Virus record (IMG/VR): IMGVR_UViG_3300020595_000038
Span: 1-61,478 of that record
Origin: a virus
Strand: one strand, 5' to 3'
DNA: 61,478 nucleotides
Shown: in pieces, positions 13,244 to 43,969 of the stretch
Numbering within the stretch: position 1 is the first letter of the stretch
How the letters are laid out: every line of letters starts with the position of its first letter
Notes under the pieces: model-generated
The model's database searches: none
Seen by the model: only the letters and a program-made list of their open reading frames with translations
What the model was told of the DNA's origin: nothing
Made by a program: the position numbers and the translations under genes

Positions 13244-13549
13244 ATGGCTCATGAAATAAATGAAAAAACCAAGGTCATGTTAGACCTAAAGACTATTGGG
13301 ATTATAGTGTCATTCACTATTAGTTTGGCAACAATGTGGTTCTCGCTACAGGCTGACATCCAGAAAGCAATGAATTCTCCTGCCCCTGAAGTCTCTAAAA
13401 TAGAATTTTCATACAAGGATGAATTAATTAGATCTACAGTTGAAGGTGTTCAATCTGACGTTAACAATATTAAAGATGATATCAATGAGATTAAAAATCA
13501 TTTAGAAAAAATGGATGCTCGTCTCTATGAATTAACAACGAGAAAATGA
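13244..13549 (+). CDS. Single-pass membrane protein with coiled-coil tail
   Basis: A 101-residue protein. Residues 12-35 (DLKTIGIIVSFTISLATMWF) form one membrane segment, followed by a soluble tail with a heptad-like helix (VNNIKDDINEIKNHLEKMDA). It closely parallels the protein at 34294-34596 in the lysis cassette in both length and layout (KxxVxLDxKT + membrane segment + coiled coil), so the two are probably paralogues. Its stop overlaps the next start (ATGA). Possible roles are membrane anchor, holin accessory or spanin-like partner; none is proven. Confidence 0.65.
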   Translation: MAHEINEKTKVMLDLKTIGIIVSFTISLATMWFSLQADIQKAMNSPAPEVSKIEFSYKDELIRSTVEGVQSDVNNIKDDINEIKNHLEKMDARLYELTTRK

Positions 13550-13887
13550 AAAAGATAACACTTATATTATTGTTATTTATTGGGTTCCAGGCTTATAGCC
13601 AAGAATATAAAGATAATATAAGTATATGTCAATTTTCATCTAGTTTCACTTCCGATGCAGATCTAGACTTAAGGGTATTTAAGAATAACTTCTTCTATAA
13701 TTTTAAAATAGAAAAAGATAAAAAAATATTTGATGCAGAAGAGGTTAAGTACTTGCCTACAGTTATTGTTTTTTCAAACGGAAAAGAAATTTTAAGATTA
13801 GAAAGCGGTATTAGCATGAAACTCCCAGAAGATTCTGAGAAACAAATAAAAGAAAAAGTCAACTCACTTATAGAAAGCAAGTTTTAA
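13546..13887 (+). CDS. Secreted thioredoxin-fold-like protein without CxxC
   Basis: A 113-residue protein with a signal peptide (MKKITLILLLFIGFQAYSQ, cleavage likely after S-Q). The mature part reads like a thioredoxin fold: an early strand 'NISICQFSSSF', then 'YLPTVIVFSNGKEILRLES', matching the thioredoxin pattern in which a cis-Pro-Thr segment is followed by a strand and 'nGkev.r'. The active-site CxxC is absent (only one Cys), so redox activity is unlikely. It overlaps the preceding gene by four bases and precedes the beta-barrel gene by three. I recall similar secreted pairs in uncultured marine flavobacterial phages. Function unknown; periplasmic action is expected. Confidence 0.6.
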   Translation: MKKITLILLLFIGFQAYSQEYKDNISICQFSSSFTSDADLDLRVFKNNFFYNFKIEKDKKIFDAEEVKYLPTVIVFSNGKEILRLESGISMKLPEDSEKQIKEKVNSLIESKF

Positions 13888-13890
13888 AGC

Positions 13891-14964
13891 ATGAAAAATA
13901 TATTATTAATTCTAGTGCTCTTTAGCACTTCCCTTAATGCACAAGTAATTAAAGAGATCTTTAAGTATAGCACTGTCTTTGGCAGTTATACAGAAAGCAG
14001 TCCATTAACACAGACATCACAATATTTTGTAACACAAGGGGGCGACCTTATTGATGTTACACCAGAGCAATCAAATGACTATATGGTAACATTAGGTATT
14101 AGAAAGATTGCAAGAATGGATTATGAAAACAAAGCAGAAAGGTTTTATGATGGCACTGAGTCATTGTCTTCTTTATCTAGTAACGTAGGTGCTATAAAAG
14201 GATTAGAATATTTATTTCAATATTCAAAAGGATCTCAACAGAACAGAAAATTTCAAAGTCAAAGATACTTTATAAGATACATTGCTAAATACTGGGTTGC
14301 TAAAGTTGAAATGCAACAAAATGGTTTAATAAATTTAGATTATAAAACTGCTGACCTTAGATTGAGATTACCAATTGGTAAAAAGTTTAGTGTTTCAGCA
14401 GGAGCAGCAATAAGAACTCATTTACCTTATGGTTTTTCACCAATTGCATCATACTTAGAAGATCTTCCTTGGTGGGATTTAGCATATGAGTATGGCTATC
14501 AAGATAATTACTATGGTATTGATTATGATAATGATGGTGAGTTAGATAACTATGATTGGTGGTGGTCTAATCAAGATGGAGAAAGAGTTGCAGACACAGA
14601 TTTAGATTTCCGTAGAAATGATTATGAAGATATTGTTAATGATTATAATTCTACCGAGTTAAACGCTATTGGAACTCTAGGAACCTTAAGTGCTGTGATC
14701 GGTGCTGATTATTATCATTTCAGAGACAAGTGGTGGATTCATACCTGGGGTAATGTTTATCCAAAGCATCAACACATACTTGGTAATGAGGCTTACAGTT
14801 ATGAAACATTTATAGGAAAAGATAACTGGACAGATTACAATTACGGAGTTATTTTTGGATGGAACATAAGCAAAAACATAGGAATATTTACTGAGTACGA
14901 AAAAACTAGTTTCTGGGATAAGAACTTAGTCTTTCTTAAAGCCGGTATAAACTTTAGATTATAA
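13891..14964 (+). CDS. Exported outer-membrane beta-barrel-like protein
   Basis: A 357-residue protein with a signal peptide (MKNILLILVLFSTSLNAQ). The mature chain alternates polar and hydrophobic residues as in a beta-barrel (FIRYIAKYWVAKVEMQ, ADLRLRLPIGKKFSVSAGA, NYGVIFGWNISKNIGIFTEY) and ends in a strand 'LKAGINFRL' with aromatic/hydrophobic spacing like a barrel-insertion signal. Residues about 210-220 hold a calcium-loop-like DYDNDGELDNYD rich in Asp and Trp. A phage gene for a host outer-membrane protein suggests a change of the host surface, such as receptor masking, superinfection exclusion or nutrient uptake. It could also be a periplasmic lysis factor. Confidence 0.6.
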   Translation: MKNILLILVLFSTSLNAQVIKEIFKYSTVFGSYTESSPLTQTSQYFVTQGGDLIDVTPEQSNDYMVTLGIRKIARMDYENKAERFYDGTESLSSLSSNVGAIKGLEYLFQYSKGSQQNRKFQSQRYFIRYIAKYWVAKVEMQQNGLINLDYKTADLRLRLPIGKKFSVSAGAAIRTHLPYGFSPIASYLEDLPWWDLAYEYGYQDNYYGIDYDNDGELDNYDWWWSNQDGERVADTDLDFRRNDYEDIVNDYNSTELNAIGTLGTLSAVIGADYYHFRDKWWIHTWGNVYPKHQHILGNEAYSYETFIGKDNWTDYNYGVIFGWNISKNIGIFTEYEKTSFWDKNLVFLKAGINFRL

Positions 14965-17339: not shown

Positions 17340-17901
17340 CTTCGATTTTTTTTTCGGGGGTATTAAGATCTGGGGTGACATATCTGTACTGTCGCTTATC
17401 CACCTTAAATTCAAAATATTTGTTTCTGTCATTAATCGTTACTACCGGCCATGTCTTAATCTTCTCCTTCTCAAAATTCATTAACATATACCTGTGATCT
17501 GATAGGAATAAAACAAACAATACAAAGTCAACATCCAACTTATCTATTGTAAACATATTTACCTTCAGGGATCTCTCACAACCCTTAACATCTATTCTCT
17601 TTCCATCAACTATAAGATCAGGATCACTTACACCTTTTTCCTTAACAAATGCTGAGGTTGTGTAATTAATGCCTTTTAAATCATAATGATGCCTTACTAA
17701 AAGTTCCCCTAATATTCCTTTGAAGTCGGTGTAGAACTCATTGTCTACAGGTTCATCAAATAAAATAGGGTGCTTGTACTTGTAACTTCTAGACTTCCAA
17801 TAAAGTTTTTTGTAGTGGTCACGATTTGCCATGACTCTTGTGTCAACGTATAATTTTGCATGATTGAATATGCAGTCTGGTATGCTATATATTGCGTCCA
17901 T
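17332..17901 (-). CDS. PD-(D/E)XK nuclease-like protein
   Basis: A 189-residue protein with the spaced catalytic residues of the PD-(D/E)XK fold: Glu in 'FKGILGELLVRHHY' (about residue 66), Asp in 'GVSDPDLIVDG' and the D-x-K of 'KRIDVKGCERS' (about residues 103-105). Strands flank these as expected (VDFVLFVLFLSDHRYML). It overlaps the GroES-like gene by 17 bases. Likely role: DNA repair, host DNA breakdown or restriction-like cutting. Specificity cannot be judged by eye. Confidence 0.65.
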   Translation of the reverse strand: MDAIYSIPDCIFNHAKLYVDTRVMANRDHYKKLYWKSRSYKYKHPILFDEPVDNEFYTDFKGILGELLVRHHYDLKGINYTTSAFVKEKGVSDPDLIVDGKRIDVKGCERSLKVNMFTIDKLDVDFVLFVLFLSDHRYMLMNFEKEKIKTWPVVTINDRNKYFEFKVDKRQYRYVTPDLNTPEKKIEDE

Positions 17902-18523
17902 TAAGTTCCTTCCCTAAAATATCTGATTGATGCATTACGTAATATTCAACACCCTCGATTTTGTTTAGAAAAGAGTTACGTTCGTGAAATCTCACAGTAT
18001 CTCCGTTATTTAAACCAAGTTCTTCTTTGCCTTTCAATGGTGTACCTATGTGCCTTACGTAACCTTTGTCTTCGCTACGCTTGGGTGGTCCCATGATAAT
18101 AGATCCAATTTTTTCCTCTTCCATGTAAGGCTCGATAAGAACGTGATTGGCAATAGCAGTCAAAGATCCACCTCGTACAAAACAGAAGCATTCTTCTAAG
18201 TCCGCTAAATAAACATCATCCTCTCCGGTAATAAGATTGTCTTTACTCACAGTTAGATAATTGAAGTAAGCCATATCGCCTACTTGCATCTCCTGTTTTA
18301 TAAAACTACCATTAGTGCTTTTACACCACTCTCCTCTAGGTAAAGCCACGACCTCTCCACATATTGTTACGTGATGTTCTGGATTGTATGATACATCTAA
18401 GTATAGTTTATTGCCTCCTGAAAATTCAACCTCATCGTTGTATTTCTTAGAAACTTTAACCGCTATTCTTTGCCCAATCATATTCATTGGTGCTAAGATA
18501 AATAAAGATGAACCTTCGTGCAT
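17885..18523 (-). CDS. Two-domain GroES-like co-chaperonin
   Basis: The open frame reaches an ATG at 18592. I favour the ATG at 18523 (MHEGSSLFILAPMNMIGQRI), with 18487 also possible. The C-terminal half has the Cpn10 pattern: 'ANHVLIEPYMEEEKIGSIIM' (first strand and mobile loop), 'KGYVRHIGTPLKGKEE', 'NNGDTVRFHER' and 'YYVMHQSDILG'. The N-terminal half shows the same plan again: 'GQRIAVKVSK', a loop, 'VTICGEVVALPRG', 'QVGDMAYFNYLTV'. Two fused Cpn10 domains recall chloroplast Cpn20. It would cap host GroEL or a variant ring to fold capsid proteins, as T4 gp31 does. Its 3' end overlaps the nuclease gene. Confidence 0.65.
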   Translation of the reverse strand: MHEGSSLFILAPMNMIGQRIAVKVSKKYNDEVEFSGGNKLYLDVSYNPEHHVTICGEVVALPRGEWCKSTNGSFIKQEMQVGDMAYFNYLTVSKDNLITGEDDVYLADLEECFCFVRGGSLTAIANHVLIEPYMEEEKIGSIIMGPPKRSEDKGYVRHIGTPLKGKEELGLNNGDTVRFHERNSFLNKIEGVEYYVMHQSDILGKELNGRNI

Positions 18524-19130
18524 AAAGTTATTAACAAAAGAAGTTAACAGAGATATACACTGGTGGACATACTGGCTAGCATAGGTAGACAAAATGGCTA
18601 GCCTTTCTATAATATATATATAATATATTTAATATACTATATAATATACTAGTATTATAAATTAAACTAATATTATACATCTTTTGAGTAGTTGCATTTT
18701 TTTTTAGGTTCTAAGATCATTAAAAAAACAGACCGGCATAATACCATTTAAAATTAATTAAAGTTCCTTACATTTGCTCAGAAGGGCATTGTAGATGTTT
18801 TTGTGGTATAACACCTAATATATGGTGGGCCAGAGGCAAATGGGAGAATGGGAATGAAAGACCGGGTACATGGCAAAAAAACGTTTTAAAGATCGAATTA
18901 GTCCACTTAGGACTAGCAACAACCCACCCCTACCTACTGACCCTCAGTCTGTTATACATTTACACAGGCCTATTATATCACCAGGATGCATTTTGTCCTG
19001 GACATTTTGTAAGAAAGGAAACGTTACGGATCCGATCAATGCCTAAATGAATTTGAATTGACGTGGTTACGTTAACGATGCAATGCTGTGCAAGAATTCT
19101 TACAAAACAAATCAAACAAAATATAGTAAC
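18524..19130. other. Gene-poor AT-rich region, possible origin or control region
   Basis: No convincing gene was found in these 607 bases. Positions 18600-18680 are almost pure A/T with alternating TATA runs. At 18769-18776 TACATTTG matches the Bacteroidetes -7 box, but no -33 TTG is visible. CATTTGC (18771-18777) and GCAAATG (18836-18842) could pair. Around 18980-19000 CCAGGA and TCCTGG form a hairpin with a 9-base loop. TGGCTAGC occurs twice near 18573-18601. The stretch divides divergent minus and plus units and could hold a replication origin, promoters or an untranslated RNA. Confidence 0.4.
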
Positions 19131-19730: not shown

Positions 19731-19807
19731 TGCCTGGTAGTTCAATTGGATAGAACAACAGACTTCTAATCTGTAGGTTGAGAGTTCGAGCCTCTCCCAG
19801 GTAACCA
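19731..19807 (+). tRNA. tRNA-Arg (anticodon UCU)
   Basis: A full 77-base cloverleaf: acceptor TGCCTGG/CCAGGTA, D-stem GTTC/GAAC, anticodon stem ACAGA/TCTGT with loop CTTCTAA (anticodon TCT), T-stem GAGAG/CTCTC with loop TTCGAGC, discriminator A and encoded CCA. All stems pair, with one G-U in the acceptor. It reads AGA codons, which are abundant in the phage genes here. It lies in a gene-poor stretch just upstream of the early promoter. Confidence 0.93.
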
Positions 19808-24580: not shown

Positions 24581-25531
24581 ATGAATACAGGCAGTTTTAT
24601 CTCATTACTTAAGCAAGTCATTACTCTATTAGAGGATGGATCTATTTTAAACTATGGTAAGAAGTTTTCCAATCTTACTATTACCTCTTATAGACAAGTG
24701 TATAATCAGATGACTGCCTATAAGTTTAACTTTGACATAGAGAGTTTAGATCTTAATAACGTTAACAATAGAAAGGATAGACTTAAGGTCACCCGAAATT
24801 TACAGTCACATGTAAATAAATATCTAAATCTTATGTTGGACGATTGTAAACACCATAACACTAGAAAAACACACCTTAAGATCATACGAACTACACTTAA
24901 GAAAGCAGAAGCATATTACGGATATATGTTCCCAGGGCTACAAAGTATGAGAGAGTTACAAACAGAAGTCATTGCATTAGATCCAACACAGGTAGAGTTA
25001 ATACATAACAACAACCCGGGAATCGAACTCGAAGATGTTTGGTACTATACCAGGCTAATGCTATACTCTTGCATGAGGGTAAGTGATTTGGTAAACTTCC
25101 AGGCATCATCCGATGGAAGCGAAGTTACTATTATAACTAAAAAAGGAATCGGATCTATATCATCTTTCTATTTACCAAAAGATGTTCGTGATTTCCTGGA
25201 GGGGAAGGGATCTTTTTCTCATTCTCAACAATACTTTAGAGTTCAACTTAAAACGTTGCTTAAATCCTATAAACAATTACACGAAAAGAAAATAGTATAT
25301 ACTTATGATCACAATGGGAATCCTGTGCATGAGGAAAAATTTCTTTACGACATTATAACTCCACACAAATTAAGAGCAAGCGGAATTACTTACCACTTAT
25401 CAAAAGGCTTAAGTGAAATAGAGGCAAGGAATATTAGCGGTCACACAAATGGATCAACAGCATTCTACAGATACGTAAAGCACTCTAATAAATCTTCCAT
25501 AGAAAAACAAAAAAAATACTCAACATTATAA
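24581..25531 (+). CDS. Tyrosine recombinase 1
   Basis: A 316-residue protein. The catalytic domain is complete: Arg I in 'LMLYSCMRVSDLVNF', Lys in 'ITKKGIGS', His-x-x-Arg in 'TPHKLRASGITYHLS', Gly-His in 'EARNISGHTNGS' and the nucleophile Tyr in 'TAFYRYVKHS'. The N-terminal 110 residues are a helical core-binding domain. Two recombinases in one phage are unusual; the second is at 32309-33568. This one lies inside the early operon after the DnaA-like and HTH genes, so it may resolve replication products rather than integrate. A 25-base palindrome follows its stop by 21 bases. Confidence 0.88.
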   Translation: MNTGSFISLLKQVITLLEDGSILNYGKKFSNLTITSYRQVYNQMTAYKFNFDIESLDLNNVNNRKDRLKVTRNLQSHVNKYLNLMLDDCKHHNTRKTHLKIIRTTLKKAEAYYGYMFPGLQSMRELQTEVIALDPTQVELIHNNNPGIELEDVWYYTRLMLYSCMRVSDLVNFQASSDGSEVTIITKKGIGSISSFYLPKDVRDFLEGKGSFSHSQQYFRVQLKTLLKSYKQLHEKKIVYTYDHNGNPVHEEKFLYDIITPHKLRASGITYHLSKGLSEIEARNISGHTNGSTAFYRYVKHSNKSSIEKQKKYSTL

Positions 25532-32308: not shown

Positions 32309-33568
32309 CTAGTGCTTCAATTTATCCTTCAGCATTTTAAACATATCATTCACTCTGTATTTTTCTAAAATGTCAGAGTGATATTTTGTATACTTTTCTA
32401 GCATCTGTGGTGCTTGAGTATCTTTGTAATGTACTGAAATAGTATTGTCGTTTTGATACATGAGTTCTCTCATGTCAGCATCTGGAACACTAAGTATAGA
32501 TCCTGTTGTTTGAAATGCTTTTCTTACAGACTTAAAGGGATGCCCAGTAATTACTTTAAACCTGCGTTGTATTTTCGTCCAGAAAGTTAAGTCTTTACCT
32601 CCACCTAAAGGGAAAATAGACTCACATGTTGGATCAATCATATTATTTAATAAAGATATAATTTCCTCAATAGGATCTAACCCCATGTAAACCAGACCCA
32701 TTTTATTAGTTTTTGATCTATTATGTTTGTACACCATGTTCTTTTCACCAAATGAAAATCTTTCTGTATTTTCATAGGTCGAGTCTACAAATCTATCCAT
32801 TGATAACAAAAGAATATCACGAATATAAAGTCCTCTCATTGAGAACAGCAATAAGTAAGTTAAAATAGAGGTAACAGAAAATTCAAATTCATTATTGTTA
32901 ACGTCTAGACCATTAATAACCTTGATTAAATCTTCAGACCTCATCCATTTTGGTTCTAGTTTTTTAGAAGCAACAGTTCTGACGTATGAAAAAGAAGTAA
33001 ATGTAATCTCATCTTTTACTGCATGGTTATGAACTGCTTTTGCAACTCTCCTGTATGAATTAAATGAAGCAGGACTTCTTTGTAGTTCTTTAAATTTATC
33101 TTTTAGTTTTAACCAATTATTTTTATCAGCCAATTCTTCAAACGTAATTTTTCTAGTACCATTAAAATGTGTTGCAATCGTACACATTTGCCCTCTGTAA
33201 GAATTAAAAGTATTTTCTTTAATTTGATTTTTAAGATGTTGATCCATGTATGAAACAATATCGTTCAAACGAGACCCACCTAAAAGCCTATTGCGAGCCT
33301 CTTCGTATGTCAAAACAGCGAAAGTATTTTGATCATAGAGTTCATTAACAGTCCTACTTAATTTTTTTAGTTTTTTATTTACTAAGTCATAGTAAGGATG
33401 ATTGGGTTTAAGTCTTTTGTTTCTATTATCCCAATGTTTTTTAATTACTTTTATTTTAGTGGGAATTTTTTTATCAAACTGTTTGGTTTTAAAACGAACA
33501 TGTAATAATACAGATCCATCTTTATTTGTTTCATTTCTAGTACATATTGTTAATGCCATGGTTCCCAA
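32309..33568 (-). CDS. Tyrosine recombinase 2, Bacteroidetes-type integrase
   Basis: A 419-residue protein from the ATG at 33568 (an ATG at 33559 is also possible). The N-terminal arm-binding domain (MALTICTRNETNKDGSVLLH, a strand pair typical of Bacteroidetes integrases) is followed by a SAM-like core-binding domain ('SYMDQHLKNQIKENTFNSYR'). The catalytic domain shows Arg I in 'LLLFSMRGLYIRDIL', Lys in 'RSKTNKMGLVYMG', 'HPFKSVRKAFQTTGS' as the H/S-x-x-R box, and Tyr in 'QMLEKYTKYH'. It should integrate the phage into the host chromosome. Its upstream region holds a promoter, an operator-like palindrome and repeated GTTCCC sites. Confidence 0.85.
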   Translation of the reverse strand: MGTMALTICTRNETNKDGSVLLHVRFKTKQFDKKIPTKIKVIKKHWDNRNKRLKPNHPYYDLVNKKLKKLSRTVNELYDQNTFAVLTYEEARNRLLGGSRLNDIVSYMDQHLKNQIKENTFNSYRGQMCTIATHFNGTRKITFEELADKNNWLKLKDKFKELQRSPASFNSYRRVAKAVHNHAVKDEITFTSFSYVRTVASKKLEPKWMRSEDLIKVINGLDVNNNEFEFSVTSILTYLLLFSMRGLYIRDILLLSMDRFVDSTYENTERFSFGEKNMVYKHNRSKTNKMGLVYMGLDPIEEIISLLNNMIDPTCESIFPLGGGKDLTFWTKIQRRFKVITGHPFKSVRKAFQTTGSILSVPDADMRELMYQNDNTISVHYKDTQAPQMLEKYTKYHSDILEKYRVNDMFKMLKDKLKH

Positions 33569-33857: not shown

Positions 33858-34301
33858 CTACTTATGTCTGTTATCACCCATCACTTTTTCAATTCCACGA
33901 GAACCGAAGTATGCTCCAATAATTAAACTGAGGACTCCTGAGATTGCTTCTAATTGATAATCTAGATACCAACCAACAACATAACTGACTGAGAAAAATA
34001 TAAGCGTTAGAGGTCTTACATTAGCGGTTAACCATCCAGATGTTGAATCGGCTTCCCATCTTTTTGTAACTTCTTGCATCTCGATAATATCAAGTTCTAA
34101 AAGTTTAAGTGCTGTTTCTTTATCTTCTTTTGGTAGTACTTCAGGACTCTCTTTTTCGATCAAACTTTTAACCATACCTAATACACCGGCATCAGGCAAT
34201 ACATCACCTACTATACCTAATATAGATGGCACTTTGTTAATTAAAAATCTCCCCACCTTCGTGTCTTTAAATTTCTTTTTTGGTTTGCTCATGTCACTCA
34301 C
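33858..34301 (-). CDS. Holin, three-transmembrane type
   Basis: A 147-residue protein. After a basic start (MSDMSKPKKKFKDTKVGRFL) it has an amphipathic segment 'SILGIVGDVLPDAGVLGMVK', the conserved 'EMQEVTKRWEADSTSGWLTA' with Trp, then 'NVRPLTLIFFSVSYVVGWYL' and 'AISGVLSLIIGAYFGSRGIEK'. The R-W-E-A-D...N-V-R-P-L...G-A-Y-F-G-S-R-G signature is that of the 3TM holin family found in Bacteroidetes phages. It makes the inner-membrane hole that frees the amidase. It is the last gene of the late unit. Confidence 0.8.
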   Translation of the reverse strand: MSDMSKPKKKFKDTKVGRFLINKVPSILGIVGDVLPDAGVLGMVKSLIEKESPEVLPKEDKETALKLLELDIIEMQEVTKRWEADSTSGWLTANVRPLTLIFFSVSYVVGWYLDYQLEAISGVLSLIIGAYFGSRGIEKVMGDNRHK

Positions 34302-34596
34302 TTTTTATTTCTTTAATTAACTGCTGTAACTCCTCAATGTCTTTTTGTAAATACTCAATTCTTAAATCTTGCTTTGCATCATCCGGTAAAGCACCCATTT
34401 CACCTCTAGGCCACTTAATTCTAAACTCATCATTTAATGTTTGATTATATTCTAACCTTACAAGTGAATTATCTATTTCAGAAATTTTAGCGGTTAAATC
34501 AAACCATATACCTGCAATTGTTACAATACCTATAACAATACCAACTAACGTCTTGATATCTAATTTAACTTCTGATTTGTCAGATAATTCATTCAT
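34294..34596 (-). CDS. Single-pass membrane protein with coiled-coil tail, paralogue of 13244-13549
   Basis: A 100-residue protein: membrane segment at residues 13-33 (DIKTLVGIVIGIVTIAGIWF) and a coiled-coil C-terminus (YLQKDIEELQQLIKEIKSE). The K-S-x-V-x-L-D-x-K-T lead-in and lengths match the plus-strand gene at 13244-13549. It overlaps the holin gene by eight bases. In a lysis cassette it may act like an inner-membrane spanin or holin partner. No lipoprotein partner was found. Confidence 0.6.
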   Translation of the reverse strand: MNELSDKSEVKLDIKTLVGIVIGIVTIAGIWFDLTAKISEIDNSLVRLEYNQTLNDEFRIKWPRGEMGALPDDAKQDLRIEYLQKDIEELQQLIKEIKSE

Positions 34597-34756
34597 CGCC
34601 TTCCCACCATTTTATGTGCAGCATTATAAATATAAAGTACACGTTTAACTCATAACAATCTTCAACTTCATCAGGTGTATAGAATGACCAACCTAACATT
34701 GGACCAATCCTAAACCTTTCTGAAATTGCTACAACATAACCTAAATTATCGAACAT
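34589..34756 (-). CDS. Small membrane-associated lysis-cassette protein (55 aa)
   Basis: Start at the ATG 34756 (MFDNLGYVVAISERFRIGPM); the longer frame from 34873 lies within the amidase and is rejected. It has one or two hydrophobic stretches (LNVYFIFIMLHIKWW). It overlaps the amidase by 11 bases and the next gene by eight. I recall similar small proteins in flavobacterial phage lysis modules. Function unknown. Confidence 0.5.
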   Translation of the reverse strand: MFDNLGYVVAISERFRIGPMLGWSFYTPDEVEDCYELNVYFIFIMLHIKWWEGDE

Positions 34757-35171
34757 ATTTTTCCTGTATTGATTTGTATTCTTCTTGAGCATTAAAACTA
34801 GGACAAGCCTTTGAGGAGAAATTACAATGACCAAAAACCTCAGACCCTGGATAACTTGCACAAAGATAACCAACCAAGTATTCTAGGCTGTTAATTTGTG
34901 CATCCGTTCTAGTGTCTTTAGCATTCATATCAGCGTCTACTCCTCCTACATATGTTATGCCTATAGAAGTCTTATTGTGTCCCTTACAATGTGCCCCTGA
35001 TATCTCTATTGGTCGCCCCGAATTAATCTCACCATCTAATTGTACTACATAATGATATCCGATCTGTGACCAACCTCTTTTCTTATGCCACGAGTCGATA
35101 TCCCCCACCGATACGGCTCTTCCTTCAGGAGTTGCTGTACAATGAACTACAATCTTATCTATCTTTCTCAT
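34746..35171 (-). CDS. N-acetylmuramoyl-L-alanine amidase (T7 lysozyme type)
   Basis: Start at the ATG 35171 (MRKIDKIVVHCTATPEGRAV), two bases after the 2931-residue protein. A longer frame from 35243 lies inside that gene. 141 residues with Amidase_2 motifs: zinc His in 'VVHCTATPEG', 'WHKKRGWSQIGYHYVVQLDG', 'HCKGHNKTSIGITYVGG', then His and Cys zinc ligands with a Lys in 'FGHCNFSSKACPSF' (compare T7 lysozyme H17, H122, K128, C130). It cuts the amide bond of peptidoglycan at lysis. No signal peptide, so it needs the holin. Confidence 0.9.
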   Translation of the reverse strand: MRKIDKIVVHCTATPEGRAVSVGDIDSWHKKRGWSQIGYHYVVQLDGEINSGRPIEISGAHCKGHNKTSIGITYVGGVDADMNAKDTRTDAQINSLEYLVGYLCASYPGSEVFGHCNFSSKACPSFNAQEEYKSIQEKYVR

Positions 35172-35173
35172 AA

Positions 35174-38100
35174 TTAATCTAGTATTGTTTGTCTCCAAAC
35201 TTTTTGGTTTTTTAATTTTGATTTTGCTTGAGCCGCAGTCCACATTTTTGCTATTGCTTTTTTATGTATGCTTTGAGATTTTCCTGTGTGAGTTAAAATC
35301 TTATCATCCTTTTTACCTCGACCATTCATATACCTAACAAGCATCTTGCTAAACTCTAGCCCTGTTGTTTGTTGGTGTTGGTAAAGTTCTTCCGGCTCTA
35401 GGACTCTTAAATCTCTACCTACTCTTAGAGGACGATTTTGTATTTTACCAGGGTAAGCATTATATTTATCTAAATATGCCCATCGAGGATCTTCACCTCT
35501 TATACCTCTCCAATGAGTATAAGGTATTACAGTTTCTCCCGGGTAACTCTTAGCCTCTTCTCCAAAAGCATCTATCTTAGGTTTACCGAAAACTTGACTT
35601 AATCCTGCCGCATATAGTAAAGCATTTTTAGCATCACCTGCACTGTATGAATTAGCATCAAATATTTTAGTTGCCTGTCTAAATAGATTTGCATTCTGTG
35701 GAAGTGGTCGTAAAAGCGTACCACCTACAGATCTTATAGAAGACTTACCCATTCTTTGTAAAGTCCTTGTCATGTCATCATCACCAACTTTATTAGGATC
35801 GTACTGAGTACCTCTACCAGTAAATGATTTAGTTACTGCTTCTGTCATATCTTTTACAGATGTTAACACAGATGAATCCATAATTAAGTTAGCAGAGTTT
35901 GCATAAGCAATAAGCAATCTATCTTGCATGTCATCAAACACCTCACCTTTTCCTCCTGTCATTTTCATTGTCTCCATATAGTTTCCTATAATTGCAAGAG
36001 GTATTGATAATGGAATAATATTTCTATAATCCATTGTTGCATCTCCAATCTTTACAGTATAAGGAGGAAGTGGAGCGTTTTTCATATCACTTCTTGTGTA
36101 TGGGTTTGAATTGTTATATCCACCACCGCTTACTTCAAAGAAAGGATTCTCATCATCATCTTCATAAGCCATGGCCGCTAATGCCGCTAAACCTAAGAAT
36201 GATGTTGTACCAAAGTATGCTCTAGATAATTGCTCTTCTCTCATCCTAGTACCCTTATCACCCAATCCATCTTTAGTAGCATATGCTCTTGCTAATCCAA
36301 ATCCAGGAGTAACATCAATCATGTATTCTCCAATGGACCCGATTATACTTGTAAACGGCACAAAGGATTTTAATACAAGTTTACCTAAGAAACTTCTATC
36401 AGGATCATTAGATGCTTGTCTTATTTTATTTGCTACAAATGCAATAGGATGTGTATAGAAAGGACCTCCTCTGTTATCAATAAACACTTGAGCATTACTT
36501 GCCAAGTTGGCATCAGTTGCAATACCCTTTATTTCAGCCTCTTTCATGGCTTTCATAAATTCCTTAAACTCTTCTATTGTTCCATCAAACCCATCCTTCT
36601 CTTTCATAACTTCAAGTTCAGCATCAGACTTGTTTACAAAGTCTTCACTATACCTTTTAGCCATTGCCTCATGCATCAGTTCTCTTACTCTTACTACTTC
36701 AATATTACTAAAGTCAGTATCAGGATCTGCCTTACGCATTCTATCCATTAAAGCCTCCATCTCCTCTTTAGCATGTGTCTTAACCTCTGTTGCTAAATAA
36801 AGATCAGCAGCCCTTTGTCTTAACTCGTTTCTTGGAACTCCATCTTTTTGAAGTTGATCCAATAGATAATTATAGTATCTACCTTCATAACCAACCTTAC
36901 TTATGAATCTATCCGTAGAGTTTAAAAGCCTACCTACGAACTTATAATAGTTATAAGGATTCGCTTTACCACCTTTAAATTCTGTAGTCTCAAGAACATT
37001 ATATTGACCAGACTCATTATTTGATTCTGTGCCCTGATACTTATCTACTCTAGCACCATTCTTCATTATATCCATGGCCATATTATAACCTTGAGATAAG
37101 CCTCTTCTATTTGAGCCGTTTCCTATTTTTCTTATAAAATTTAAATACCCTCCAGTAAATATTCTATCAACTCTAGACATATCCATTAATGGCTGTAAAA
37201 CTATATTAGCACTACCTGAAGTAGCATTTAATACCTGAGTAGATGCTCCTGAAAGCATAGCCGCATACTGTAATGCAAAAAATGTGTCTTGCCATGAATA
37301 TGATGGTACTACTGAATCCATATACTTATACATAGATCTCATAGCAACATTAGCCAACTCACTATTCTCTGGAGATTCTTTAATTATTTCATGTAACTCT
37401 TGAATTTTTGCTCTTTGCTCTGGTGATAGTGTTGTACTTTCTAACTTAGTTTTTCTACCTCCAAACAGCCTATTAATAAAATGTCCAATACTTCCTCTTT
37501 TATCAAAGGCTTCATTAAACTTCTCCATCGCAATTTCAGTTCTATCTATCAAAGATGCACTAGTTTGTGCGGTCCAAGATCTTAGAGCAGCAGATGCTTG
37601 CCCGGATAAAGTTCCATCCTCTGCTAACTGAAACTCAATAGCCGACATTGTTTCTAATGCGTTGTCAATCTCAGATTGTGATGCTCCTTCAGATCTAAGT
37701 TTACTAACCTTTAATCCGTAGTGATGAAGTGCTGCTTGTCTAGCAAGTTGAACTCTAGGTAATTCCTTTATAGTTGGATTCTTTTTAAGTAAGTCTTTTA
37801 TAACTCCTTCATTCTCAAACCCTCCTTCTTGTTGATTAACTTGATCTATGATATCCTCCATAGTCTCCTGCATACTCATAGTCTCGTAATAGTTTGGATT
37901 TTCATTTACCCAATCATATACTTCAGACTTACCTACATCATCGTTCTTTGCTTTGTTAATTGAGTTTTCTTCAAACCCTCTTTGCTTCATGCCTTTAGTT
38001 CCCATAAATTTATTAAGGACTAAACGTGCTTCTTCGGTAGACAGTTCTTTACCATCTACTCGCTGAGAGTATGTTTTTATACCATAAAGTAATTTGGAAA

Positions 38101-41100
38101 CAGACGCACCCTTATCACTAAGAGTACTTAAGAATGAGGTTAACTGATCCGGAAGACTTTGTTTGTCTATTCTTCGGTGTTGGACCCCTGATATCGATCC
38201 GCCATCATCTGTCTGTACAGTTCCAGAGAAGCGGGATCCATCTCCTTCGTCTTGTTGTCTTTGTGCATCGATATTTGAATCGCCTTGTCCTGACTCGAAT
38301 TTTCTTCCCTTGGACTGGAAGTATTCCTTTGTACGTGTTTTGCTAGTTCCTTTAAATAAGTCTTTTGATCCATTTTCTATATTATTTAAGATTTCGTTGT
38401 ATTGATTATTATGAGCAACGAATGTATCTACATAATGGTTGTAAAAGTACAAAACATTCTCGTTGTTTTCCAAATTTAATTTAGTTTCTTGTGCACTATT
38501 ACTCCAGTCAGAAACTGCTTGCATTACATTTTCATCTGTAATATCTTCTTCATTTTCAAATACAAACTCTGGAACAAATTGATACTTAACACCTAAGACC
38601 TTATCTCCTGCTTCATTCGTTATAAAAGTATAACCGGAAATGTCTGTCTTTATTGGCCCTAATTGAACACCTTCCTTGTCTAAATTTTCTCTAGCAAAAG
38701 TAGATGCTTCTTCAAAACTCATAGGAGTTCTAAATTGCATTTCAACAGCAGGTCGAGCGTTTGGACGTTTAGCCAATTCTCTTTCCACACTTTCAGGATC
38801 CATTCTCTCATCAATTGGTAACACCTCTGATAAAAACACAGACTCTTGCTCATGTTTCTTTGCTGACTCTAATGCTCTTTTTAAAACAGGAGTCATATCT
38901 TGACCTGACTTAACAATCATCTCAGCATCAAAACTTCTTTCAGGATATATTAAGTATTGTCCTTGAGTTTTGTTAACCTTTAATGATACTAGGTCACCAT
39001 CTCTTAAATCGTTCTGAATTGATTGTCTTTCCTCTTCTATTATATCTAAGTTCTCTTTTGATTCTAATACAGGATCTGTATACTGATCTCTCTCTGTACT
39101 TAAACCTAAGTAATATCTAGTAATATCGCTCTTGCCTGCTTCTTCTCTGAAATCAGATTTCTTAGCAGCAGTACCTTTTGACCAACCTTTCTTTAACCAA
39201 AGATCTTTTTCAGCAAACCATAAGTATGCTTGAAGATCATCAGGATCCATTCCTAGTTTTTGAGAAGCATTTATTATTACTCCCTCTGCTAGTTGGTAAT
39301 CAGATACTCCACCTGCATCAGCAGCATAGACTCTCTCATCTACACCCTGTTCTGCTCGCTCTGCGATTCTATATCTATCTACATTACCATCGTAAATCAT
39401 TCTTCTAATGGTACGAGCAGCCCACAAATCAATCGTAGGATTGGTTGTCATCCCTACTACATTCTCATAGAAGTTGTTAGTTTTGCTTTGTTGAGTTTGT
39501 TTAAGCCATATACCTGCCAATACTTTAGCAGCAGCAGGACTATTGATGCCGTACAACTTAGTAGGATTGTCTGTTCTAAATAAAGGATTTGCCTTTGGAT
39601 ATAGGTTTAATAATTTCCTTTTGGTTTCATTAATATCTTTTGGATCAGGCTTTATTCTTGACTCGCTGTATGCTGTCTTGCCTTGTTTTTTTAGAGCATT
39701 GACTGCTCTTCCTTTATATTCATTGAAAAACTCATTAAGTTCTTCTTCGTTTTCAAACTGTTCAACACGATCTATAAAGTCTTTGTATTCTTCAATGTAC
39801 TTATCATATGCTCCTTTTGAATATGCTTCTAAGGCTTGTGTTGCATACTTATAGTTCTGCTGAACATCAGTCTGACCTGAAGTAGCACCTAACAATCTCC
39901 CAAAGAAATTAGTTCTTCCACCAAAAGTATTTCTCATACTAATATGTAAGTCCTTATACCATCCTAATCCTTTGACTACTTCTGGTACATCTTTATTCGC
40001 ATTAAACTCCTCTACAATTTTATCTCCAATCTGATCAACTTTTTCTTCTACACTTCCTTTTAAATGTTTATTAATTCCATTTACTAAAGAATATGATTGA
40101 CCTGAAATCTTTACTTGTAACTTACCACTTTTAGTTTTCTTAAACTGATACTTTCCATCCTTCATGACTGGATTTAACTCCGCTAAAGTAGGGTCGCTGC
40201 CTAAAGTTTCTTTTAGGTTATTAAACTCTTTTATTGCCTCACGCTCTGGATTTTTATATCTCTGTGCATCAATAGCATCTATATCTATACTTTCTTTTTT
40301 AGAGTCTGGATCTATATTAGTAGCAGACATAATTTTCTCTGCACTAGAATTTATAACAGCATCTAAACTAGTTGTTTGTATATCAAAGTCTGCTTCCGTT
40401 GGTAGGTTTAAAGCAGATTTAATAATTTCTTTTACCTGGCTTATAATCTTTTCAAACTCTGATTGTCTCTTAGGATCTTTAAATATTTTAGCACTCTTTT
40501 CTCCTATTGCTTGAACTAATGCTTCGTTTAAGGCCCTGTCTCCGTATCCGTTTTTGACAGCATCTTTATGAAATTTAGTTCCCTTGATTAGAGACATTGC
40601 TTTCTTATGTGCCTCCGGATTTAACTCCGCTAACATATCTTCCCATATATGAGCGAACTCATGTATAGGCGTATCTAATGTTGCAAGTTCAGGGTTAATA
40701 AAAATCTCGTTAGTAGTTCGGTTTCTAAAACCTTTATTTTTACTAGGATCTAATCCATTCTCCCTTGCTTTTTCATTAAAGGCCTCCTGATCTAGAGTGA
40801 CAGTAGATCCTTTAAATACTCTTTGAAAATGATTGGCTAACTTTTTAATGTCACTAAAGACATCTCCTGTTTCAGGATCAATACCAGATATTTGAGGTTT
40901 TTGATCAGTCTTAGTTTTAGAATCCGATTTAGTTTTAGAATCACTTTTAAAACTGTTAGGATCTTGTTTTACCAATTTACCATCTACAACTTTATATATA
41001 TCATAGTTGGACATATCCCTTGCAGGAGTATTAGGTTTTGGTACAACAATACCTCTGCTTTCTTTTCGAGTTGCTTTATTTACTTTATTATTATTAGGTT

Positions 41101-43969
41101 GCCAGTTGTCTGGATCTACTGTTCCAGGCTTAGAAACCACAACATATCCACCTTCAACATTCTTTACAGTGTTTGAATAAATACCTCCTTCTTGAAAGTT
41201 TGGTGCTCCATCTTTACCATTGGCCTTAGCAACGTTAAATGAAGTCTCTCCTTTAGGTGCAACCCCTTCAGTAAAACTACCTTCAGTTTCTCTTTTACCC
41301 TTGATCTGACCTCCATTAACCCAGTTCTCAACAGCCTCTCGACTTTTTGTTTTGTGAGTAACTACATCAGAACCATATTTTTCAGGAACATTTTCTACTT
41401 CTATTGTTTCCTCTACAAAAAGTTCAACTTCATTTTCAACTTTTGGTGATAGTGGTTTTAGTATTTGATCTAATTCTTTATCAGCATCAGATTGTTCTTC
41501 TTTTGATACTTGAATCTCCTGTTCATTAAAGACTCTTATTTGTTTCTGACCTCTGTTATATGCAGCGGCCATACGTTTCATTCCATCTAAAACATTTCCT
41601 TGTTCATCAATAACAGCAGGAGCATTCTTTTGCTTGCCATCATATTCCATGTCAGGATTTTCATCTACAAACTTCTTGAATTCTTTATTTGTTTCATAAA
41701 GAGTTTCAAGGGTCACCCTCTTCATTTTAAAAGTTCTGTTCTGTATGTTCTCTAACTTTGATGCTAACTCTTTATCTGTTTTACTGTCTCCTACACTTTC
41801 AATAACAGAAACAACTTTACTACCATCAACAATAGAACCTGGTTTAGGCATACCACTTTTGATGTCTGCTTTTTTCTCCTCAACTATTGCTTTTGATTCA
41901 GGAGTTTGCGGAGCAGGTGAATTCATTTCATCATACACTAGAGCCGCTTCTTCAACTATCTGATTCATAGGAGTACCGGCATCCTTTAAAGGAGTAACAA
42001 TATTTTCATATTGTCTTGCTTTATCCAACATCCCTTCAGCAGTTTCTTTTGAAAAACTAGGATTCTTTTTCTTTAATTCTTTTTGAACTGATTTCTCAAA
42101 GTTTACAAAATCTAATCCTGCTGTAGTCCAGGCTTCTTTCTCCATTTGAGTTGATGACACACCCAAGTTTGGACTAGCCATTAATGTAGTTGCCGTTGCT
42201 GTAAGAATAAGTGTATTAATAAACTCATCTTTACCCATGAACTTATCTACACCATATATAGGCTCTGGAGATCTTTGATCATACTTGTATTTTTGGTAGT
42301 TTTCAAAACCACCTTGTACTAGTTCTTCTACTTCCTCTGAACTAACTTCTTTTATATATGCTTTACCACCTGCTTTTATAGCCATCTGTCTACTTCCGGA
42401 ATTTGCTAATACTTTAACCGCTTCTTTAGTAGCCTTACTACGTACACCCATCATTGCTGAAACACCTCTTCTTGCTAAAGGGTTATTAAATATCGCACCT
42501 GTAGCACCGGTAACCACACCTATACTTAAGGCCATTGCCTCTGCATCTTCTGGATCTACTCCTAATTCTCTTGCTTCTTTGTTTGTTTGGTGATATGATT
42601 TAAAGAATTGGTCACCCCCCATTACAGCACCTGCTGCTAATGATCCACCACCTGTATATGCTGCGGCTACAATTGCCGGAGCCATTTCTCCTACAGTCTT
42701 TAAAGTCATAGGTAAAATATACATTGGATTGTCTGCTAATGATGCACCTGCAACTTGATCTGGGATATAGGCAAACTGCCCAATTGCAGTGTCTTTCCAA
42801 TTATCAGAAGAAAAGAAATGTGAAATATTATCTGCTACATCTTCAATTTGTCTGTCAAATTTTTCGTCTTGAGCCGCTAAGGATGCATTTGTCTCATCTG
42901 AAGCAAGTGAACTTCCAATTGCATCTGCTAATAATACTCCCGGATTCAGTTTATCTCCATGCTTTCCAAAAAATTCAACTGCTCCACCTGCTAAGTCTCC
43001 TAAAGTCGATACAATTGCTCCTAAACCTACCATTACTGACGTGTCTAAGTAACCCGGTCCCATTGCACCACCTAAACCTGGTCCCATTGCACCACTAAGT
43101 CTCATGGTCTGCAACATATCTTTTGCTTCTGCTGAAACAAAATCTCCGTAATTGTTCTTTAAGTGATTATGATAACTTGTAGCCATGTCCTCGTGGGACT
43201 TGTACATCTTCATGAACGCTTCGTCTTCACGAAGTTCAGGCATATATTTAAAAAAATCAGCGTTTCTCTCTACATAATCATAAAGATTTGTATCATAGTT
43301 TTTTGCTATATATCTAAGAGCATTAACTTTAAACTTTGTTCCTTGAAAATTTCTTGCCTGTTTAGTAAACTCATAACTAGCCTTAGGATCAGAGAAATAA
43401 TCTTCCCCTTCCGCTAAGTCCCCACTATACTTATTTGTAAACTCTGGATCTGTTTGTCTTAAGACTTGACCAAACTGAATAAGGTTTTTCTTAACCGATT
43501 CATCAGTACCTTCTGGCATTAGGTTAGGGTTTGAAATAACACCATCTACCTCTTGATTATTATACATCTCTGTACCTTTATCAATAGATGCTTGTATCTT
43601 AGCCCACTTGCCTTGTGCGTTTTCCGGATTTACCTGAGAATTCACTACGTTAAGTGCTCCATTATTATTTTCGTATTCAGGAAACTGAACACCCTCTAAC
43701 TCTGGAAATAGGTTTGGAAACTTAGAATTTAATTCATCGCCTTCTTCGTAACGTCCTCTATTGAATGTATTACCCCATGTTACAGCATCTTGAAATTGCT
43801 CCTGATTTAAACCAGGAATAACATTTTGAATATCTGCAATTTGAAAGTTAGAAGAACTAGTTCCTCTTGCACGTCTTAATCTGTCTGCAAGAATAGTTAA
43901 TTGATCTTGTTTATCGTCTATACTTAAATCTACAAAAGGATCAACTCCTAAGATATCTTCGTCTTCCAT
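35174..43969 (-). CDS. Giant internal virion polyprotein with zincin and ParB-like domains
   Basis: A 2931-residue protein, the largest in the window, between internal virion proteins and the lysis cassette. Visible parts: a helical N-terminus; Gly-rich hydrophobic segments about 285-325 and 410-450; a ParB/Srx-like segment near 780-810 ('VIDEQGNVLDGMKRMAAAYN'); a zinc-metallopeptidase motif H-E-F-A-H at about 1103-1107 in 'LDTPIHEFAHIWEDMLAELN', with 'ALNEALVQAIGE' as a possible third ligand; and long helices. Near the C-terminus are membrane-like 'TSFLGLAALAAMAYED' and a basic end. It resembles phage polyvalent proteins ejected with DNA (T7 gp16-like position). Confidence 0.75.
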   Translation of the reverse strand: MEDEDILGVDPFVDLSIDDKQDQLTILADRLRRARGTSSSNFQIADIQNVIPGLNQEQFQDAVTWGNTFNRGRYEEGDELNSKFPNLFPELEGVQFPEYENNNGALNVVNSQVNPENAQGKWAKIQASIDKGTEMYNNQEVDGVISNPNLMPEGTDESVKKNLIQFGQVLRQTDPEFTNKYSGDLAEGEDYFSDPKASYEFTKQARNFQGTKFKVNALRYIAKNYDTNLYDYVERNADFFKYMPELREDEAFMKMYKSHEDMATSYHNHLKNNYGDFVSAEAKDMLQTMRLSGAMGPGLGGAMGPGYLDTSVMVGLGAIVSTLGDLAGGAVEFFGKHGDKLNPGVLLADAIGSSLASDETNASLAAQDEKFDRQIEDVADNISHFFSSDNWKDTAIGQFAYIPDQVAGASLADNPMYILPMTLKTVGEMAPAIVAAAYTGGGSLAAGAVMGGDQFFKSYHQTNKEARELGVDPEDAEAMALSIGVVTGATGAIFNNPLARRGVSAMMGVRSKATKEAVKVLANSGSRQMAIKAGGKAYIKEVSSEEVEELVQGGFENYQKYKYDQRSPEPIYGVDKFMGKDEFINTLILTATATTLMASPNLGVSSTQMEKEAWTTAGLDFVNFEKSVQKELKKKNPSFSKETAEGMLDKARQYENIVTPLKDAGTPMNQIVEEAALVYDEMNSPAPQTPESKAIVEEKKADIKSGMPKPGSIVDGSKVVSVIESVGDSKTDKELASKLENIQNRTFKMKRVTLETLYETNKEFKKFVDENPDMEYDGKQKNAPAVIDEQGNVLDGMKRMAAAYNRGQKQIRVFNEQEIQVSKEEQSDADKELDQILKPLSPKVENEVELFVEETIEVENVPEKYGSDVVTHKTKSREAVENWVNGGQIKGKRETEGSFTEGVAPKGETSFNVAKANGKDGAPNFQEGGIYSNTVKNVEGGYVVVSKPGTVDPDNWQPNNNKVNKATRKESRGIVVPKPNTPARDMSNYDIYKVVDGKLVKQDPNSFKSDSKTKSDSKTKTDQKPQISGIDPETGDVFSDIKKLANHFQRVFKGSTVTLDQEAFNEKARENGLDPSKNKGFRNRTTNEIFINPELATLDTPIHEFAHIWEDMLAELNPEAHKKAMSLIKGTKFHKDAVKNGYGDRALNEALVQAIGEKSAKIFKDPKRQSEFEKIISQVKEIIKSALNLPTEADFDIQTTSLDAVINSSAEKIMSATNIDPDSKKESIDIDAIDAQRYKNPEREAIKEFNNLKETLGSDPTLAELNPVMKDGKYQFKKTKSGKLQVKISGQSYSLVNGINKHLKGSVEEKVDQIGDKIVEEFNANKDVPEVVKGLGWYKDLHISMRNTFGGRTNFFGRLLGATSGQTDVQQNYKYATQALEAYSKGAYDKYIEEYKDFIDRVEQFENEEELNEFFNEYKGRAVNALKKQGKTAYSESRIKPDPKDINETKRKLLNLYPKANPLFRTDNPTKLYGINSPAAAKVLAGIWLKQTQQSKTNNFYENVVGMTTNPTIDLWAARTIRRMIYDGNVDRYRIAERAEQGVDERVYAADAGGVSDYQLAEGVIINASQKLGMDPDDLQAYLWFAEKDLWLKKGWSKGTAAKKSDFREEAGKSDITRYYLGLSTERDQYTDPVLESKENLDIIEEERQSIQNDLRDGDLVSLKVNKTQGQYLIYPERSFDAEMIVKSGQDMTPVLKRALESAKKHEQESVFLSEVLPIDERMDPESVERELAKRPNARPAVEMQFRTPMSFEEASTFARENLDKEGVQLGPIKTDISGYTFITNEAGDKVLGVKYQFVPEFVFENEEDITDENVMQAVSDWSNSAQETKLNLENNENVLYFYNHYVDTFVAHNNQYNEILNNIENGSKDLFKGTSKTRTKEYFQSKGRKFESGQGDSNIDAQRQQDEGDGSRFSGTVQTDDGGSISGVQHRRIDKQSLPDQLTSFLSTLSDKGASVSKLLYGIKTYSQRVDGKELSTEEARLVLNKFMGTKGMKQRGFEENSINKAKNDDVGKSEVYDWVNENPNYYETMSMQETMEDIIDQVNQQEGGFENEGVIKDLLKKNPTIKELPRVQLARQAALHHYGLKVSKLRSEGASQSEIDNALETMSAIEFQLAEDGTLSGQASAALRSWTAQTSASLIDRTEIAMEKFNEAFDKRGSIGHFINRLFGGRKTKLESTTLSPEQRAKIQELHEIIKESPENSELANVAMRSMYKYMDSVVPSYSWQDTFFALQYAAMLSGASTQVLNATSGSANIVLQPLMDMSRVDRIFTGGYLNFIRKIGNGSNRRGLSQGYNMAMDIMKNGARVDKYQGTESNNESGQYNVLETTEFKGGKANPYNYYKFVGRLLNSTDRFISKVGYEGRYYNYLLDQLQKDGVPRNELRQRAADLYLATEVKTHAKEEMEALMDRMRKADPDTDFSNIEVVRVRELMHEAMAKRYSEDFVNKSDAELEVMKEKDGFDGTIEEFKEFMKAMKEAEIKGIATDANLASNAQVFIDNRGGPFYTHPIAFVANKIRQASNDPDRSFLGKLVLKSFVPFTSIIGSIGEYMIDVTPGFGLARAYATKDGLGDKGTRMREEQLSRAYFGTTSFLGLAALAAMAYEDDDENPFFEVSGGGYNNSNPYTRSDMKNAPLPPYTVKIGDATMDYRNIIPLSIPLAIIGNYMETMKMTGGKGEVFDDMQDRLLIAYANSANLIMDSSVLTSVKDMTEAVTKSFTGRGTQYDPNKVGDDDMTRTLQRMGKSSIRSVGGTLLRPLPQNANLFRQATKIFDANSYSAGDAKNALLYAAGLSQVFGKPKIDAFGEEAKSYPGETVIPYTHWRGIRGEDPRWAYLDKYNAYPGKIQNRPLRVGRDLRVLEPEELYQHQQTTGLEFSKMLVRYMNGRGKKDDKILTHTGKSQSIHKKAIAKMWTAAQAKSKLKNQKVWRQTILD

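Follow-up and report, generated by a model that had tools for sequence, protein, structure and literature searches.

A three-gene envelope module of marine phages combining a predicted outer-membrane beta-barrel, a thioredoxin-like protein without CxxC, and a putative coiled-coil membrane protein: a candidate lysis device

Among the closest described counterparts of the locus analyzed here are the lambda Rz/Rz1 pair and the u-spanins of the T1 gp11 type. The passages of Kongari et al. (2018; PMC6139136) on this subject report no identifiable spanin in ~13% of the surveyed phage genomes, with Croceibacter phages P2559S and P2559Y and Bacteroides phage B124-14 among the spanin-less ones; they leave open by what means these phages get through the outer membrane and allow that "an OMP could act as an o-spanin" (OMP, outer membrane protein). 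Passages of a 2025 survey (PMC12596118) state that Bacteroidetes phages use USP (u-spanins) exclusively, and the main text of a study of Baltic Flavobacterium phages (PMC7077304) contains none of the terms lysis, holin, spanin, or outer membrane. Here we describe three consecutive genes on the + strand of the 61,478-bp virus record IMGVR_UViG_3300020595_000038 (hereafter, the window, meaning the whole stretch of DNA analyzed). They encode a small membrane protein (F4), an exported thioredoxin-like protein (F9), and a predicted outer-membrane beta-barrel (the barrel). The original prediction, made from the sequence alone, had placed the F9 and barrel genes correctly and had treated the two as the whole unit, of which F4 is in fact a third member. 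A literature search of titles and abstract openings found no description of such a trio. We tentatively read it as a late, lysis-associated, envelope-spanning device with spanin-like action, a reading that we prefer without considering it established.

The trio resembles lambda Rz/Rz1 in several respects: F4 has a single N-terminal transmembrane (TM) segment and a heptad-rich part, the stop of F4 and the start of F9 share 4 bp (ATGA), the outer partner is predicted to lie in the outer membrane, and lysis genes are close by in many phages. It differs in having no lipoprotein, its outer partner being a predicted integral barrel, and in having a third, thioredoxin-fold periplasmic partner; membrane fusion or rupture would be a proposed action of the trio. 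As for u-spanins, genes resembling them follow F4-F9 in three loci that have no barrel, but the barrel itself has neither a lipobox nor a C-terminal TM segment and in some phages occurs together with a u-spanin-like gene.

A profile scan of IMG/VR recovered 125 relatives of the barrel, the best 80 of which (61 distinct barrel sequences) were kept. F9 accompanies the barrel in 75 of these 80 loci and F4 in 71, and in all 5 loci lacking F9 and all 9 lacking F4 the DNA ends before the expected position of the gene. Greedy choice of open reading frames (ORFs) hides overlapping genes, and F4 was masked by antisense ORFs in several loci; the F4 and F9 counts were therefore redone on all ORFs. The gene order is F4-F9-barrel except in L178 (barrel-F4-F9) and in L189 and L190 (F4-barrel-F9). 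Over 53 loci with distinct barrels, the three proteins diverge together, with Spearman distance correlations of 0.83 (F9-barrel), 0.66 (F4-F9), and 0.62 (F4-barrel), values as high as these being reached in 0 of 500 permutations. They are also under purifying selection: the ratio of nonsynonymous to synonymous substitution rates (dN/dS) relative to locus L005 is 0.047 for F4, 0.055 for F9 (dS of both being near saturation), and 0.077 for the barrel, with the large terminase subunit (TerL) at 0.039 as a yardstick. When grouped by single linkage on at least two common neighbor families, the 80 loci fall into 10 gene neighborhoods (contexts), an approximate number. Nine of these contexts are represented on the barrel tree, which requires 10 switches between them, and the trio appears to have moved between neighborhoods rarely but repeatedly; within the terminase lineage of the window it is optional. 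A further small exported protein (cluster B46) is inserted between F9 and the barrel in L124, L126, L142, L145, L147, and L157, and similar proteins were recognized by eye in L226 (3160-3489; G031) and L233 (14568-14900; G042). They are reminiscent of the YfiM/DUF2279 family; the one B46 protein tried had no Pfam match at 0.01.

Among the likely genes of the window, only F9 and the barrel have signal-peptide-like N termini, as the original prediction had read them. These calls, like those of lipoboxes, were made with our own hydropathy rules and not with SignalP; the scan also flagged two ORFs, 51 and 55 amino acids (aa) long, that lie opposite long genes. By the same rules, no lipobox occurs in F9, the barrel, or any likely gene of the window, and a relaxed lipobox scan of every window ORF gave five hits (36 to 59 aa), all opposite long genes.

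F9 is most likely a redox-inactive exported version of the thioredoxin fold, because its profile matches thioredoxins and its cis-Pro is invariant, while 70 of 70 distinct relatives, of which a few are truncated, lack the CxxC motif; a redox-active F9 was dropped on the latter ground. The profile (18 relatives), run against the Protein Data Bank (PDB), matched thioredoxins, with TXNDC5 the best (E = 2e-7) and yeast Trx1 also recovered (E = 1.8e-6). Two distant relatives, L189 and L182, pass the Pfam PF00085 cutoff of 23.5 bits (31.7 and 27.3 bits), with the window F9 below it at 13.5 bits, and the cis-Pro (Pro71) is found in 34 of 34 diverse members. The thioredoxin fold without CxxC that had originally been proposed is thus borne out. 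F9 shares its fold and cis-Pro with the thioredoxin superfamily and differs from it, apart from the missing motif, in being secreted and in ending with an aromatic tail tied to the barrel. This tail (K/R/Q followed by F/W, mostly KF) is present in 59 of 59 distinct F9 proteins accompanied by a barrel, three of which carry one further Asn, and in 0 of 10 that are not (69 proteins, i.e., the 70 distinct ones minus the truncated L058). On the tree, the barrel-less F9 proteins form two groups, for which the best count is two changes. The tail may dock F9 to the barrel.

The barrel gene product is probably an outer-membrane barrel, in agreement with what had been read from the sequence, and one of 12 strands. 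Two AlphaFold2 models, built with 11 and then 30 relatives (mean pLDDT, 75.4 and 79.3; pTM, 0.66 each), both have 12 long strands, with an insert of 85 residues (178-262) between strands 7 and 8. In Foldseek and VIA-align searches, nearly all the solved structures listed as neighbors of the model are membrane beta-barrels: NanC (a porin), FapF, and EspP lead by E value, and the CymA channel aligns with a Z of 11.9 and an rmsd of 5.8 over 212 residues. Normalized to the query, TM-scores for the PDB entries in these lists reach just 0.19-0.35 and do not fix the exact barrel class, and no solved relative comes out clearly ahead of other barrels. Among viral models in BFVD, A0A516LKJ4 matches at TM-scores of 0.78/0.81 with 27% identity, and some other listed phage barrels are annotated as porins. 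Small outer-membrane barrels such as NanC, KdgM, NalP, EspP, and CymA have ~12 to 14 strands; the trio barrel has this fold in common with them but differs in having no sequence match to them, a conserved 85-residue insert with an Asp loop, and obligatory partners.

Sequence searches with the barrel gave no significant match in Pfam (0 of 11 members and 0 of 3 more distant barrels), in PHROGs, or in the collection of phage records. In PHROGs, the best matches of the window F9 and barrel reach just E = 0.067-0.2, and the barrel profile found weak matches only (E of 0.041 and above) among PDB sequences. The tblastn searches of 50,697 phage records with the window barrel and F9 recovered none, nor did those of phage records with two distant barrels and one F4; a further F9 query recovered 2 weak short matches, one annotated as thioredoxin. 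Of two scans of genome contigs, the first was empty and the second yielded one 3.6-kb contig of a metagenome-assembled genome (MAG), with the order M15 endolysin-F4-F9-barrel, which looks phage derived; because this was all that the genome contigs gave, a host origin of the barrel was not found at the search sensitivity used.

Mean column identity of the barrel over 30 diverse members is 52%, and its C-terminal residue is Leu in 41, Arg in 15, and Phe in 3 of 62 distinct barrels. The insert has 34 of its 85 positions at least 90% identical, among the highest shares of any barrel segment and across different gene neighborhoods. Its Asp loop has Asp at positions 1, 5, and 9 and Asp or Asn at position 12 in 61 of 62 distinct barrels, and the full form DxDxDGxxDxxDWxW in 41 of 62. 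The acidic, calcium-loop-like patch noted originally thus has a spacing like that of EF-hand/dockerin loops, and the loop would be a candidate calcium binder.

The barrel might instead be a pore, or an enzyme (a calcium-dependent hydrolase), that weakens the outer membrane; F9 and F4 would then be its chaperone or regulator and not a mechanical bridge. The combination of 12 strands and an Asp loop is reminiscent of OMPLA, CymA and NanC are among the best structural neighbors, and the invariant polar residues, which are numerous and include His177, His284, and His293, would suit such a function; however, no catalytic motif was identified, and a stand-alone pore or enzyme needs no co-conserved inner-membrane coiled-coil protein, which leads us to regard this possibility as unlikely. 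OMPLA (PldA) itself carries a His-Ser-Asn catalytic triad on a 12-stranded barrel. The corresponding H-x-S...N pattern was not seen in the barrel alignment and the 11 members tried had no Pfam match; an OMPLA-like phospholipase was considered and dropped. The porin-like structural neighbors and the porin annotations in BFVD would also fit an uptake or envelope-maintenance porin with a periplasmic partner, unrelated to lysis, but the neighborhoods that can be named are lysis or structural, not metabolic, and we dropped this quite improbable candidate.

F4 has one N-terminal TM segment, placed by eye at about residues 18-35, the stretch of highest hydropathy being 11-27. Its C-terminal half, also by eye, is heptad rich. 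The inner-membrane component of a spanin is a type II protein whose coiled coil lies in the periplasm, a topology that F4 may have. A paralogue in the window, F4' (27% identical to F4, with E = 5e-9 when just these two are compared), sits between the amidase and holin genes of the lysis cassette. An F4' homologue lies near a peptidase M15 in Pelagibacter phage HTVC027P, one of two neighborhoods opened, and in Pelagibacter phage HTVC121P an annotated lysozyme is ~2 kb from the F4' homologue. This family has a WPRGxMGxLPxDA-like motif (MN698241.1, 9830-10252 [L111]; MH598803.1 [L112]) and is common to the phage group of the window and Pelagibacter phages; thus, phages of different host phyla have a lysis-linked gene in common. 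The match of phrog_739 (Rz-like) to an F4' protein is at chance level (E = 0.044).

In many phages, the trio is close to lysis genes. We scanned 18 barrel-bearing records of 31 to 63 kb, comprising the window, G008, G010, G014, and 14 of a further set of 22 records (omitting G032-G035, G037, G045, G047, and G048); they were chosen by us, are not independent, and come with no given completeness. In 8 of the 18, no more than 304 bp separate the trio from an endolysin, which may be on either side and belongs to one of three types: M15 (G027, G039, G041, and G042), phrog_822-type amidase (G040 and G043), and L178-type amidase (G014 and G046). PHROGs names all eight as lysis, for G014 just at E = 5e-5, and by our own arithmetic such adjacency would arise by chance in ~1-2% of cases per record. 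G014 belongs to the terminase lineage of the window (TerL E = 1.3e-244). By context, a lysis gene is found within 1.5 kb in 5 of 10 when families with PHROGs-named lysis seeds are counted, and in 6 of 10 when 2-TM holin-like and lipobox-plus-TM u-spanin-like families, named by topology without a PHROG match, are included; in context 0, this is the case in 22 of 27 loci. A survey of the region upstream of TerS in 54 of 80 TerL loci, picked for having upstream DNA, found F4 in 29 and F15, a small TM protein, in 15, never together, and neither in 10. The Elemovirus homologue of F15 (38% identity) comes immediately before an annotated D-alanyl-D-alanine carboxypeptidase, likely the endolysin.

In the window the trio diverges from the TerS-like, TerL, and portal genes, as had been claimed of its last two genes, but this does not extend to many of the relatives, where it is codirectional with structural or lysis genes. 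Its position between neck/connector and tail genes in several phages might suggest virion parts or DNA-ejection factors. Since the signal peptides and the beta-barrel fold point to proteins that are exported before virions assemble, and the neck/tail neighborhood often also has an endolysin and a holin, this seems very improbable to us, and a virion component was dropped from consideration.

The original prediction had offered two roles for its gene pair, a change of the infected cell's surface (exclusion of rivals or receptor masking) and support of lysis. The envelope location agrees with our predictions, and lysis gains comparative support from the endolysins beside the module, F4' in the lysis cassette, and the three barrel-less F4-F9 pairs followed by u-spanin-like genes; the surface role gains none. 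Under superinfection exclusion or receptor masking, the trio would remodel the surface of the infected cell to prevent binding or injection by rival phages or progeny virions, as exported phage proteins such as Cor and Llp do in exclusion. A lipoprotein inside the L165 cassette weakly matches the Cor family (phrog_1119; E = 0.032), two integrase-like recombinases make lysogenic expression possible in the window, and the optional presence of the trio within its lineage would also fit. Yet the endolysin adjacency and the position among late genes speak for lysis, the insert, which strand counting would place on the outer face, is among the most conserved segments, unlike a rapidly evolving receptor mimic, and masking needs no coiled-coil inner-membrane partner; we therefore hold exclusion to be rather improbable. 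Cor, Llp, and prophage porins such as Lc are likewise exported phage envelope proteins but are single proteins, whereas the trio adds coiled-coil and thioredoxin-like partners; no link between them and endolysins is known.

Under the preferred, lysis-associated reading, F4 would be anchored in the inner membrane with its coiled coil in the periplasm. F9 would serve as a periplasmic adaptor that has lost its redox chemistry, with F4 bound at one end and the barrel, held by the aromatic tail at the C terminus of F9, at the other. The barrel would anchor the device in the outer membrane and carry a calcium loop in its conserved insert. Once the holin and endolysin have acted, with the inner membrane opened and the cell wall removed, the F4-F9-barrel bridge might destabilize or pull the outer membrane and so complete lysis, doing the job performed elsewhere by i-/o-spanins or u-spanins.

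In L193, L194, and L195, which lie outside the closest relatives of the window, a barrel-less F4-F9 pair is followed by a gene for a protein with a lipobox and a C-terminal TM segment. This gene adjoins the pair in L193 and is separated from it by a 190-aa ORF in L194 and by an M15 endolysin in L195. Barrel-less G018 encodes an Asn-rich lipoprotein. Our scan, which recognized both u-spanin-like proteins used as positive controls, detected a u-spanin-like gene in 2 of the 18 long records (G036 and G039) and none in the other 16; doubtful lipobox hits were a 99-aa protein of G031 without a C-terminal TM segment and an antisense ORF of G046.

Several observations weigh against a lysis device. In the lineage of the window, the outer-membrane component looks dispensable, because no exported barrel and no lipoprotein was seen in G009 and G001 (a 47-kb record), which have F4-F9 only, or in G005, which has F15. 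A u-spanin-like gene occurs alongside the trio in context 3 (10 loci; 5 of 22 records), and G039 has a 63-aa lipobox-plus-TM ORF; because both coexist there, the trio is not a simple u-spanin replacement, and the count of 16 of 18 is biased low for u-spanin-like genes, as 1 of the 5 context-3 records was included. In G008, G010, and the window itself, 19-20 kb lie between the trio and the endolysin, which has the opposite orientation. In G028-G031, G038, and G044, the distance to the nearest lysis gene found is 14-31 kb, and the profiles used found no lysis gene in G036. The association of tail and barrel involves at most two barrel-less groups, with a single origin possible. Lysis proteins, moreover, usually diverge fast, whereas the barrel is well conserved. 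We also rejected the argument that the barrel must be the spanin of the window for want of another, as G009, G001, and G005 have none either.

With these points weighed, the trio is a concrete candidate for the outer-membrane breach in spanin-less phages, having three genes, a clear order of partners, and the KF tail, and relatives with and without the barrel allow comparison. The barrel is possibly a barrel-type version of the o-spanin allowed for by Kongari et al. (2018). A fuller claim would make the trio the first lysis machine to span the envelope by means of a barrel, a counterpart of the spanins that has three components and no lipoprotein, is mobile in marine phages, is plugged in beside any endolysin, and is the "OMP acting as an o-spanin" of 2018. 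We put this forward as more doubtful than a lysis role as such. If the trio served exclusion rather than lysis, it would still be an envelope module of marine viruses with an obligatory three-part coupling, present in 10 viral neighborhoods.

Table 1. Coordinates of the trio and of the lysis cassette in the window
Feature	Position	Strand	Description and basis
F4	13244..13549	+	101 aa; predicted inner-membrane partner of the trio (hydropathy scan, alignment)
F9	13546..13887	+	113 aa; exported; thioredoxin fold without CxxC, most likely; cis-Pro motif LPT retained
F9 signal-peptide-like N terminus MKKITLILLLFIGFQAYSQ	13546..13602	+	No lipobox (sequence, rule-based scan)
Lys-Phe tail codons of F9	13879..13884	+	C terminus; tail restricted to F9 proteins with a barrel partner
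Barrel	13891..14964	+	357 aa; exported; predicted 12-stranded outer-membrane beta-barrel with 85-residue insert
Barrel signal-peptide-like N terminus MKNILLILVLFSTSLNAQ	13891..13944	+	Sequence, rule-based scan
EF-hand/dockerin-like Asp loop DYDNDGELDNYD	14521..14556	+	In the barrel insert; putative calcium binding
F4'	34294..34596	-	F4 paralogue inside the lysis cassette; homologues in Pelagibacter phages
Holin	33858..34292	-	phrog_3427 (PHROGs match)
Endolysin	34746..35171	-	Amidase, phrog_822 (PHROGs match)

The terminase of the window shares 31-32% identity with its counterparts in Elemovirus, whose members infect Flavobacterium, and in an uncultured podovirus. From relatives, we infer a host among the Bacteroidota; Croceibacter, mentioned at the outset, is a flavobacterium. 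Tyrosine-recombinase/integrase-like genes are found at 24581-25531 (+) and 32309-33568 (-) (phrog_1; E = 1.6e-13 and 2.7e-6) and a tRNA-Arg gene at 19731-19807, a combination that possibly reflects a temperate lifestyle or DNA inversion. A GroES-like co-chaperonin is encoded at 17885-18592 (-) (phrog_13932; E = 7.7e-12); in Elemovirus, the GroES gene adjoins that of the terminase, with the GroEL gene ~6 kb further on. Adjoining the amidase gene is a 2,931-aa ORF (35174-43969, -) with an HEFAH motif, typical of zinc metallopeptidases.

Two other sets of proteins came to our attention in related phages. In a few phages of the window lineage, F9 is followed by an Asn-rich lipoprotein, F50 (L055, 3907-4278; L057, 3536-3895; L165, 4609-4980; L104, 13089-13448), with a second F4 copy further on, and F50 is a candidate o-spanin. 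In Elemovirus and a podovirus relative, proteins encoded near the terminase and endolysin genes (L008, 6105-6650; L007, 3350-3973) combine a hydrophobic segment at the N terminus with a C-terminal part resembling beta-strands by eye; these are perhaps one-piece bridges between the membranes.

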